From Terriglobia bacterium (GTDB lineage Bacteria > Acidobacteriota > Terriglobia > Acidiferrales > UBA7541), in assembly GCA_020072785.1 (NCBI GenBank), contig JAIQGG010000001.1:186001-250000 (forward strand): 64,000 nt of DNA. Direction: 5' to 3'. Numbering within the stretch: position 1 is the stretch's first letter; the number at the start of each line of letters is the position of its first letter. The notes under the pieces were generated by a model that ran no database searches, was not told the DNA's origin, and saw only the letters and a list, made by a program, of their open reading frames with translations. The position numbers were made by a program, and so were the translations under genes. Positions 19,743 to 25,058 of this stretch are shown piece after piece.

Positions 19743-21428
<1,686 letters not shown>

Positions 21429-21839
21429 AAAGACACCTCTACCCATAGGAGTACGAATTCTAACCGCATGGCAAGCCCACGTCAATCAAGGAATCCCCTT
21501 CATTATCTGCAACTTGCCCCCGATTTTCTTTAGAGGCCCGCCGCGCCGCGCGGGTTGCCTCGCCCCACACTTCCCCCGCGCCAACGGACAGCCTGCACAC
21601 CCTGGCCTTCCGGGCAGGTTGGCTCCCAGCGAGTGGCCCTCGATAAGAGCGCAGGCCGCCCGGGACGGTGCCGTTTTATCACTCTAGGGTGACGTATGAC
21701 AGTGGTATCCTCACCGTGCCTGCGCGGAACGAAATGCGCTCCGAAGAATGCGCCACCCGCCAGTGATTTGGGCCGAGCAATGGCATCTGCTGCCTTTCAA
21801 GATCAATTGAAAAAACACTGTAAATAAAAGGAATTAACT

Positions 21840-22295
21840 ATGAGTGGCAAACTTGGCAGAGTGCTCCTAGTCACGCTCATCTGCTTGTGGAACTGGGCTT
21901 CCGGCGACGCCTGGGGAGAGAAGGTGTGCCTATGCCAGTTTGTGGCACCAAGGTATTCTCCGATAGCTCGCGCGGCACGGATTCAAGGCACCGTCAGGCT
22001 GACGGTGGATGTCGGCCCACAGGGGGAGCCCGTAAGTGTTAGTGTCGTCGAAGGGGACCCGATATTGGCCGAGGCTGCCGCACAGGCTCTTAGGAATTGG
22101 AAATTCTGCCCTCCCCCGGAAGCACGAGAGAATCAGCATTTGACCATCACGGTTCAATTTAAGCTAGACGGAAAAAGCACCAACGATTGGGCACCTACAG
22201 ATGTGACCTTTCGTCCGCCTGCCACAGTGGAGGTGGTGGCTCCGCCTGCTATAGGACAGGTCGCGCCTCCGGATGTCGTGATTCCGAAGCCTTGA
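21840..22295 (+). CDS. TonB C-terminal-domain protein (energy-transducer-like)
   Basis: A 151-residue protein with a signal peptide or anchor ('VLLVTLICLWNWASGDAWG'). The TonB C-terminal domain is at about residues 35-110: 'APRYSPIARAARIQGTVRLTVDVGPQGEPVSVSVVEGDPILAEAAAQALRNWKF', where the 'A-x-x-G-x-V' and 'A-L-x-x-W-x-F' patterns are typical. The tail is Pro/Val-rich. An AAGGA ribosome-binding site is seven bases upstream. It lacks the long periplasm-spanning linker of a working TonB, so it may be a stand-alone periplasmic domain. About 410 bases separate it from the divergent GWxTD gene; I see no clear promoter in them. Confidence 0.8.
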   Translation: MSGKLGRVLLVTLICLWNWASGDAWGEKVCLCQFVAPRYSPIARAARIQGTVRLTVDVGPQGEPVSVSVVEGDPILAEAAAQALRNWKFCPPPEARENQHLTITVQFKLDGKSTNDWAPTDVTFRPPATVEVVAPPAIGQVAPPDVVIPKP

Positions 22296-22447
22296 GGGTG
22301 TTTCCGTCCGATTAGATGACGGCGTCGGCTCCTTCGACCGAGTAGACTTGCTAGCTGTACGACGACCAAGGCTCGGAAGAGAGGAGCCGAAGGCGGGTGG
22401 CAGCCCCTTGATGAGTTGGCAAGGACTGGGTACCGTCCGCGAAAAGG

Positions 22448-23815
22448 GTGCGGTTTTGTCTTTCACCCGGCAGCGCTGCAGCGCAAACATTCACTTACGA
22501 TCCCTTCGGCAATCTCAACAAATCCGGCAGCCCCAACAGCTTCCTGCCCACTTATTCGCCATCCACCAATCGCATGACCTCCCTCCCTGGAAATTTCACC
22601 CCGACCTACGACGCTAACGGGAACGTCACTAACGACAGCAGTCACATCTACACCTGGGACGCGGACGGCAATTCTGTCACGCTTGACAGCGTCGGATTGA
22701 CCTTCGATGCCTTCGACCGCATGGTGGAACAGAACCGCTCCGGCGTCTATACTCAGATCGTCTATGCCCCCACGGGAGAAAAGCTGGCGCTGATGAATGG
22801 CCAGACGTTGCAGAAGGCTTTCGTGCCCCTGCCCGGCGGCGGCTCCGCTGTGTACACCAGCACGGGCCTCAGCTACTACCGCCATCCCGATTGGCTGGGG
22901 AGTTCGCGCTTGGCCTCGACGCCCACACGCACGGTCTATTCCACCACAGCCTACGCGCCGTTTGGCGAGCCCTATGCACAGTCCGGCACCGCCGACCTTT
23001 CCTTCACCGGCCAGAACCAGGACACCGCTGGCGGCTCCTACGACTTCCTCGCCCGCGAATACGCCATCCAGGGCCGCTGGCCGTCGCCCGATCCAATGGG
23101 AGGCAATATCGGGAATCCACAGTCCTTGAATCGCTATGCGTATGTGATGAATAATCCGCTCGCACTGGTTGATCCGTTGGGGCTGGCGTCTTGCACGCGT
23201 GATGACACCTGCGACGATAAGTATGACCGCTACCACCAATTCAGTGACGCGGTTGGCACCGGGAATTGTCTCCTGAACTTCATGCCCGCCCCCTGCCAGG
23301 TGGCCAATTATTATCTACAGACTGGATTAGGCTACATAGACTTCGGACCTGATTGGAAGTTCAAAGGCAACCTTGCCTACGGAACCAATTGCTATGTCGG
23401 CGTCATTGTGGATGCGGCATTTTGTTTAGGTGATTATCCGACTCCTAATCCGGGTGGGCAGGGCAGTACTCTTTGGTTGCAAACGAAGGTTTTCTTCCAA
23501 GCATGGGGAAGAGAAATGAAAAAGGAAACGTTCCAGCCTGGTGGATGTGCCTATTTGTTCGGCACGACATTCGTTGGAGGAGGGGAGGCAGCAGGTCCTG
23601 GACCAGTCGACGTAGGGAAGGCAGCTACGGACAGCATGAAGATTGGCTACGTTGCGGAGAAAGGTTTAGCGGTGCCAATGAGATCCTCCATTTTTAGGAG
23701 TATCACCCGATTGGGGGAGATGTTCGATGGACTTGCAGCGGCAGATTTCTTTGTTACTTCTGTAGAATCAACAGTAACCGAGATAAAGGCTGCAGTCTCT
23801 GGTGAGTGCAAATGA
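22448..23815 (+). CDS. RHS-repeat core fragment with variable C-terminal domain (N-terminally truncated)
   Basis: A 455-codon frame whose coding similarity begins abruptly at residue 13 (TFTYDPFGNLNKSG); the first dozen codons from a GTG look non-native and have no usable ribosome-binding site. RHS/YD repeats ('YDANGNVTNDSSHIYTWDADGN') and the conserved core ('FTGQNQDTAGGSYDFLAREY', 'GRWPSPDPMG', 'LNRYAYVMNNPLALVDPLGL') run to residue 246. After the DPLGL boundary come 209 residues of unrelated, cysteine-bearing, lower-GC sequence, the usual place for a toxin domain. Full RHS proteins exceed 1000 residues, so this is a displaced 3' cassette or a decayed gene. The stop overlaps the next start (ATGA). 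Confidence 0.75.
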   Translation: MRFCLSPGSAAAQTFTYDPFGNLNKSGSPNSFLPTYSPSTNRMTSLPGNFTPTYDANGNVTNDSSHIYTWDADGNSVTLDSVGLTFDAFDRMVEQNRSGVYTQIVYAPTGEKLALMNGQTLQKAFVPLPGGGSAVYTSTGLSYYRHPDWLGSSRLASTPTRTVYSTTAYAPFGEPYAQSGTADLSFTGQNQDTAGGSYDFLAREYAIQGRWPSPDPMGGNIGNPQSLNRYAYVMNNPLALVDPLGLASCTRDDTCDDKYDRYHQFSDAVGTGNCLLNFMPAPCQVANYYLQTGLGYIDFGPDWKFKGNLAYGTNCYVGVIVDAAFCLGDYPTPNPGGQGSTLWLQTKVFFQAWGREMKKETFQPGGCAYLFGTTFVGGGEAAGPGPVDVGKAATDSMKIGYVAEKGLAVPMRSSIFRSITRLGEMFDGLAAADFFVTSVESTVTEIKAAVSGECK

Positions 23816-24177
23816 AACAGCACAAAATCCGTGACGCGATGATCTATGCGGGAGTGAGCATCCTCGTCATGGCAGGAATCATTCTGTGGGCACTGTACGT
23901 ACCTGCTAACTCGGGCATTTCAGCAAAAATACTTCGTCTAACGGTCGCGACGGCCATATTGTACGGATATATCGTTCGGTGGTACTGGAAGATGCGCAAT
24001 AGTATCAGATTTTGGCTTATCATCTCAGGATTTATCGTACTGCATTTATTTTCTTTTCAAATTATCTTGCGGAACATGCAAAACATACCTCTTTTTTGGT
24101 TCATCCTGCCATGCTTATTTGAAGGTGGTTTGATTATGTTAGTACTTAATTTTATTCTTCACGTCTCTCCTCCCTAG
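23812..24177 (+). CDS. Small four-helix membrane protein, candidate partner of the RHS C-terminal domain
   Basis: A 121-residue protein that is almost entirely membrane: hydrophobic segments at about residues 9-29, 38-57, 65-85 and 90-115, with short basic loops (RWYWKMRNSIR). The ATG at 23812 overlaps the TGA of the RHS gene, giving coupled translation. The coding is AT-rich like the RHS tail and unlike the flanks. In RHS loci the gene directly after the variable C-terminus is usually the immunity gene, so that role is inferred from position; I do not recognise the family. A membrane immunity protein would suit a toxin acting at or through the inner membrane. Confidence 0.6.
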   Translation: MKQHKIRDAMIYAGVSILVMAGIILWALYVPANSGISAKILRLTVATAILYGYIVRWYWKMRNSIRFWLIISGFIVLHLFSFQIILRNMQNIPLFWFILPCLFEGGLIMLVLNFILHVSPP

Positions 24178-24340
24178 CCAGAGATCTTTGTTTCGAATTG
24201 ATGGCCGTAACCTCATTCGAATGCCCCGCCTCCCCCCCGGCCATTTCCCCCCAATCCCTTCTTGAAGCGCATGTACTACTGTGCTAACATGTGCCGTGAG
24301 TACGCAGCAGCCACCCCGCGCGCCGCACCCCTCGCCCGCT

Positions 24341-24444
24341 AACCCTTGCAGAATCTGCAGTTCCGAAAAATCCGTCCGCAACCCCTGTAGAATCTGCAGT
24401 TACAAATCATTAGACTTAAAGTCCTTTATCATCTGCACTTACAG
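24341..24444. repeat. Three degenerate direct repeats in a gene-free stretch
   Basis: The gene-free stretch 24178-24538 contains two close copies of a roughly 24-base unit (AACCC-T-GCAGAATCTGCAGTT type) at 24341-24364 and 24380-24403. A third, weaker copy (CATCTGCACTTACAG) lies at 24430-24444. The first two contain the palindrome CTGCAG with AGAAT before it. The remainder of the stretch is low-complexity and GC-skewed; no gene or promoter is visible. It may be a remnant of a dispersed element flanking the RHS cassette. Confidence 0.5.
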
Positions 24445-24538
24445 AAAACACCGGGGGGTGGGGGTCATTCTGTTAACTTCGCGCCCTCAAAACCGGGCTG
24501 GGGCGTACCGATCGGTGAGCAATGCGGGAGCAGGAGGG

Positions 24539-24826
24539 CTACTGCAGGCGGTGCGGGCGGCCGTCCGTGCCTACCAGGGTGTCGAAAATCGCCAGGACGT
24601 GGCGGCGGTATTCGATCATGCGCGTGAAGAGGTCGCGCAGCTCCGGCTGGCGCTCGGCCTCGCGATGCCACTTGGCCAGCACCACGGGCGGCACGGAGAT
24701 GTCCCGCCGCAGCTCTTCCGGGGAATGCCCGCGCAGAAACAGCCCGTAGAAAAAGGCCGCTTCGCGCTGCGGGAGATCGAAATCCAGCAGCATTTCCGGG
24801 GGCACGATTTGGAGCTGTGTGGCCAT
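24539..24826 (-). CDS. Small conserved-looking protein with helix-turn-helix-like character
   Basis: A 95-residue protein from the ATG at 24826 (MATQLQIVPPEMLLDF). The visible core is 'LPQREAAFFYGLFLRGHSPEELRRDISVPPVVLAKWHREA', in which 'SPEELRRDISVPPVVLAKW' has the helix-turn-helix spacing of sigma-region-4 or resolvase-type domains; the C-terminus is helical ('MIEYRRHVLAIFDTLVG'). No ribosome-binding site is obvious. The frame stays open 219 bases further upstream, but that extension is low-complexity and unlikely to be coding. Function is unknown; DNA binding is a guess from the pattern. It is divergent from the CYCHC-motif gene, sharing a 230-base upstream region. Confidence 0.6.
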   Translation of the reverse strand: MATQLQIVPPEMLLDFDLPQREAAFFYGLFLRGHSPEELRRDISVPPVVLAKWHREAERQPELRDLFTRMIEYRRHVLAIFDTLVGTDGRPHRLQ

Positions 24827-25058
24827 AAAGAAAAAGCAGTTTACCGAAATCCATCGCCGCGTCAAGTAGTACCCCCGTACGGGTGCCCTCTTGCGCATCC
24901 CGCCCCGCCCGGGAGAGGGCCGGGAACCCGGCCGATGGCCTTCGCGCGGCAACGTCCGCTGACGTCCCCGAACCTTGGCGGCACGCTCCGCAACACTGGA
25001 AGCTGGAAATTTCGCCGTGGTGGCCGTAAAGTAGGGCTGCAGCATGGAGGTTAATCCG

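Follow-up and report, generated by a model that had tools for sequence, protein, structure and literature searches.

Our analysis of the window (the whole stretch of 64,000 nucleotides of Terriglobia DNA considered here) leads us to think it likely that one of its loci is a displaced Rhs polymorphic-toxin cassette, in which a C-terminal (CT) domain of an undescribed family is followed by a translationally coupled membrane immunity gene and which acts in the way we propose below. The firmest part of this reading, about which we are confident, is the identification of the two genes as a pair of the toxin/immunity type; its weakest part, to which we lean by a little, is that the toxin may act at the inner membrane by forming pores or by depolarising it. 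Directly supported are the pairing of CT and membrane gene, their co-conservation, the mobility of the module, the orphan state of the window copy with repeat sequence at both edges and the existence of stand-alone membrane homologs. While the Rhs toxin/immunity design as such is already known, the CT and membrane immunity families are new to the libraries searched. Rival explanations, each weighed where the evidence bears on it, partly overlap with the one we prefer.

The truncated Rhs open reading frame (ORF; 22448-23815, plus strand) runs over 455 aa from a GTG to a TGA stop (23813-23815) and comprises, all on the plus strand, an N-terminally truncated Rhs core (22479..23185) as defined by TIGR03696 and by alignment to genome G006, a variable linker (23186..23440) without homology to the related locus L034 (see below) and a conserved CT domain of ~120 aa (family A; 23441..23815), a putative toxin with homologs in other Rhs loci. 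Profile searches matched TIGR03696 (NCBIfam) to residues 169-246 (E 3e-16) and PF05593 (Pfam) to the ORF (E 1.7e-5), and the core shares 68% identity with G006 (residues 7-247). As the original prediction had it, the core appears abruptly and ends with DPLGL (residue 246 of 455), after which 209 variable residues remain, and the TGA overlaps (ATGA) with the start codon (ATG 23812) of a gene for a 121-aa, four-helix membrane protein (23812..24177, plus strand), the putative immunity protein, whose homologs are found directly after CTs elsewhere. The AT-richness claimed for both genes stood for the conserved CT domain (50.5% GC) and for the membrane gene (42%) when set against flanking genes (62-66%, GC3 ~0.83), but not for the Rhs core, which at 60% GC (GC3 0.75) is not very AT-rich. 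Placement between a TonB-like gene and direct repeats was read correctly, with a small TonB_C-domain protein of 151 aa encoded upstream (21840..22295, plus strand; PF03544, E 1.6e-17) and the repeats lying downstream (24345-24470). We see the TonB_C gene as an accessory or hitch-hiker of the island described below; it was rejected as immunity gene for its upstream position and because such genes are directly 3' of Rhs in few loci only. TonB_C-like small genes were seen directly 3' of Rhs CTs in L051 (486-956) and L044 (843-1586).

Our argument rests on homologous pairing of CT and membrane gene in other genomes rather than on the membrane neighbour alone, which is weak and non-specific evidence because a protein with at least three predicted TM segments follows 12 of the 36 Rhs C-termini in these genomes. 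When 61 relatives were searched with the Rhs fragment, its second match was to CT residues 331-454 in G001 (L034, PMOV01000064.1; 37% identity, E 1e-18), where an overlapping ATG opens the gene for a protein 29% identical to the membrane protein of the window (E 2e-12). Scanning genome contigs with the single CT query gave zero matches, and the same scan with a two-row CT alignment returned this G001 record as its sole match. Profiles built from the first members then identified a CT/membrane pair in G060, which is from another family of the same class, and another in G008, where the CT is more distant, each at a locus retrieved by Rhs core alone. A search of the phylum with the membrane profile alone reached G078, in which the gene sits directly behind a 2005-codon Rhs frame, a complete homolog that the CT profile matches at its C-terminus (E 2.8e-8) and whose N-terminus, judged by eye, is a Sec-like signal sequence. 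In these four genomes (G001, G060, G008, G078) the homologs of CT and membrane gene lie side by side, mostly with an overlap, behind Rhs cores that are only ~30% identical. So the pair is neither absent nor broken in all relatives, and the notion of a variable-end cassette is sustained by its co-inheritance behind different Rhs cores. At the level of individual loci, CT-domain homologs are present in L034, L111, L007, L079 and L081 as well as, more distantly, in L010, and membrane homologs lie directly 3' of the CT in L034, L111, L007 and L010. Using 38 distinct Rhs C-termini and profiles built without G060, G008 or G078, we found membrane family A after CT-A termini in 4/4 cases versus 1/34 for other Rhs CTs (Fisher p 6.8e-5), the one exception being G008, the bearer of the distant CT. 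Over a small sample, five pairs in all, the divergence of the CT correlates with that of its partner (r 0.80; exact Mantel p of 4/120). In these pairs the CT and the gene after it switch together from one divergent Rhs scaffold to another.

Co-occurrence with the CT and a start that overlaps the CT stop would also be expected if the membrane protein were a translocation or anchoring partner of Rhs, instead of an immunity protein, and the CT a non-toxic membrane anchor. To our minds this is improbable, as Rhs-less, stand-alone copies of the membrane gene persist in many genomes and different membrane partners accompany the other types of CT, which is the immunity pattern. Toxin-less membrane homologs are located just 3' of aroB in three Acidobacteria genomes (L112, L114, L116), further ones sit after other genes in additional genomes, and G485 has a CT remnant with an open membrane frame alongside. 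Judged by these gene contexts, the stand-alone homologs appear to follow the pattern expected of an immunity gene and not of a structural partner. The genome that the window comes from (G000) carries a second Rhs locus (G000:C1:578900; 5556-7607 of L041, which is G000:C1:575000-584000) with a different CT and, overlapping it, a 192-aa five-TM gene. Beyond this pair, L041 has a further two stubs of CTs with a small membrane gene behind each, one of which shows 61% identity to the partner in a complete G045 pair; the arrangement resembles an immunity array. In L036 (G045:C37:1-17000), several Rhs C-terminal fragments stand in tandem with differing membrane proteins after them, and some of these fragments share conserved last ~20 residues (FFKNYTLPAIKDWGCHE). 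A superfamily uniting the window CT with those of the second own-genome locus, of G045 and of G474 was considered and rejected, all profile matches being non-significant.

Neither half of the cassette matches a family in the libraries searched, just as had been suspected: the CT (209 residues) was unmatched in Pfam, NCBIfam and PADLOC, and among PDB chains, where the match of the ORF to Tse5 spans the Rhs core only, and the family of the 121-aa membrane protein was not found in Pfam, NCBIfam, PADLOC or PDB. Nor did CT domain or membrane protein match plasmids, on which, as on phages, Rhs cores do occur. The family-A CT domain of the window has the pattern LWLQTKVFFQ...PGGC...PMRSS...GE...GxC-end; conserved in the CT are PGGC, P(L/M)RSS..R, (G)E and the final GxC. 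Two conserved cysteines lie near the CT-domain ends, which fits a disulphide-bonded periplasmic protein, and the hydrophobicity peak of the window CT is weak (0.96 vs 1.6-1.8 in G001, G078 and G027). Both features would suit a toxin that forms no pore and has its target in the periplasm or cytoplasm, in which case the membrane protein would block import or bind the toxin as it crosses the inner membrane. We hold this to be a minority option, given TM-like stretches in the CTs of some relatives and the failure to find a catalytic motif or an enzymatic family match for the CT in Pfam, NCBIfam or PDB. C-terminal cysteines were dismissed as a mark of membrane-partnered CTs, since the two did not go together in a set of 36 CTs (8/18 vs 7/18, p = 1).

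Structure prediction, proposed at the outset for both proteins, served us well for one of them only. Its AlphaFold2 model (pLDDT 84) bears out four helices for the membrane protein, while that of the CT (pLDDT 49) is of unusable confidence and Foldseek results obtained from it were disregarded. Residues H78 and E104 are conserved across the membrane family and both are kept in the window copy. An HlyIII identity was rejected at 13.4 bits versus a curated Pfam cut-off of 26.2, and with HlyIII and Bax inhibitor membrane families missing the cut-off, other families match single members only, and weakly. The fold search with the membrane protein went unmatched (best Foldseek E not below 8; VIA Z <4, three chains), which is not evidence for a new fold.

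As for the window copy itself, it is a displaced orphan and, we think, probably an undelivered one. It is part of a 2.9-kb island (21627..24539) that the nearest relative, G007, lacks at its orthologous locus; G007 aligns to window 21300-21626 at 86% and to 24540-24897 at 94%, has the same neighbours and carries 23 bp in place of 21627-24539. This locus comparison agrees with the displacement that the original prediction had raised, and tblastn of 20 same-genus loci at the island site found no homologs of the three island genes (P0001, P0002, P0003). Alignment to contiguous copies in G000 and G007 further identified sequence on either side of the cassette as the left (22392..22478, plus strand) and right (24209..24480, plus strand) parts of one dispersed intergenic repeat of ~370 bp. 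The left part includes GTG 22448 together with the ~11 codons that open the ORF, and a terminator-like hairpin remnant; the right part is 80-84% identical to the G000 and G007 copies and includes the direct-repeat patch (24345-24470), whose three units of ~39 bp each belong to the dispersed repeat. The two parts are complementary and non-overlapping, and are contiguous in contigs 2, 3 and 4 of G000 (for example, G000:C3:2725-3072) and in G007; therefore the cassette was either inserted into one copy of the repeat or ended up flanked by two incomplete ones. Rhs homology begins at around residue 12 of the annotated 455-aa ORF, so that the claim of Rhs core has to be withdrawn for the first ~11 codons, and because these are dispersed repeat and not Rhs, GTG 22448 is unlikely to be the true start. 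This explains the abrupt core: the GTG and first codons are repeat sequence and the copy is a displaced orphan, without a credible start or export signal. A full-length Rhs was not found in its own genome (98.9% complete): the search there turned up just two loci with an Rhs core, whose frames are 455 and 442 aa long, and no main rhs gene with which the orphan could recombine.

Truncation of the core, a start codon within the repeat and the failure to find full-length Rhs in a genome of this completeness are also features one would look for in a decaying pseudogene, that is, an insertion relic in the repeat without present function. Intact frames of 455 and 121 codons and retention by the membrane gene of H78 and E104, the residues conserved in its family, argue against such decay and make it, in our estimate, rather unlikely. 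What we consider most likely instead is that the displaced cassette survives mainly as an immunity gene, perhaps with a silent toxin reserve.

Features of the ~370-bp repeat are a terminator-like hairpin, a conserved promoter-like TTGAAG-N17-TAACAT and the three 39-bp direct repeats; it matches G000 at about a dozen further places and is present in close relatives, including G007 and G009. Next to its left part is an imperfect, REP-like palindrome of ~80 bp (22310..22390; DNA fold -20.6 kcal/mol, z -2.8), which is dispersed with many matches across the genus and is common to L080 (89%) and L083 (81%), near the CT/membrane cassettes there. The repeats gave zero matches in Rfam and were rejected as integron attC sites, visual inspection of the palindrome ends having shown none of the conserved attC core sequences. 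Copies of the same dispersed repeat as in the window also lie near the CT/membrane cassettes of L041, which has a REP-associated transposase-like ORF (L041 6370-6960, minus strand). That the L041 cassette interrupts the repeat at an identical split point was ruled out, as left and right copies overlap. Based on two loci in one genome and suggestive only, there is the doubtful idea that the dispersed intergenic repeats of this genus (the hairpin/39-bp direct-repeat element and the separate REP-like palindrome) preferentially capture Rhs CT/membrane-immunity cassettes, which would be inserted and exchanged there, possibly aided by a REP-associated transposase. If true, the genome would stock immunity genes against membrane toxins apart from any working Rhs gene.

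An orphan Rhs-CT/immunity module has been described in Salmonella Typhimurium LT2 (PMC3967940). Like the LT2 rhs orphan, the window locus combines a truncated core, a CT and a linked immunity gene and is devoid of translation-start and export signals (PMC3967940). Unlike it, the window cassette is flanked by a dispersed intergenic repeat, comprises families unmatched in the libraries, belongs to the phylum Acidobacteriota and comes from a genome in which no main full-length rhs was found to recombine with. For a membrane-acting CT, tested precedents are Tse5/Tsi5, the pore-forming Rhs effector of Pseudomonas aeruginosa and its immunity protein (PMC9637101, PMC10684867), and the CdiA-CT/CdiI ionophores of CDI, whose C-terminal toxins act on membranes (PMC11630599). 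With Tse5/Tsi5 the window pair shares the Rhs shell, a CT without an enzymatic motif and an integral membrane (here putative) immunity protein (PMC9637101). There are differences, too: sequence similarity between the window CT and that of Tse5 was not found, Tsi5 has two TM regions and the window partner four helices, and Tse5 is PAAR- and T6SS-delivered whereas the complete relative in G078 instead has a Sec-like signal sequence. As with the CDI ionophores, the CT is polymorphic, and CDI immunity proteins are likewise only ~30% identical within a group (PMC11630599). The window CT model also has five helices, albeit at unusable confidence (pLDDT 49), but its scaffold is Rhs and not CdiA, and a VENN motif or identified entry domain is absent.

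By analogy with these systems, we infer toxicity of the putative CT toxin, a membrane target and neutralisation by the partner protein. In the mechanism we envisage, the complete homolog, an Rhs shell with a Sec-type signal, would be exported with the CT as its C-terminus, and the CT would be released into a neighbouring cell. There it would insert into or act on the inner membrane, probably forming pores that depolarise it; a resident four-helix protein may bind the CT in the membrane and block it.

Taken this way, our findings add two unmatched families, a CT and a polytopic-membrane immunity protein, to the Rhs arsenal of Acidobacteriota, which are abundant soil bacteria and whose contact competition appears little studied in the literature on the phylum and on Rhs or polymorphic toxins. 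The orphan in the window, moreover, suggests how immunity may persist once the gene that delivers the toxin is gone.
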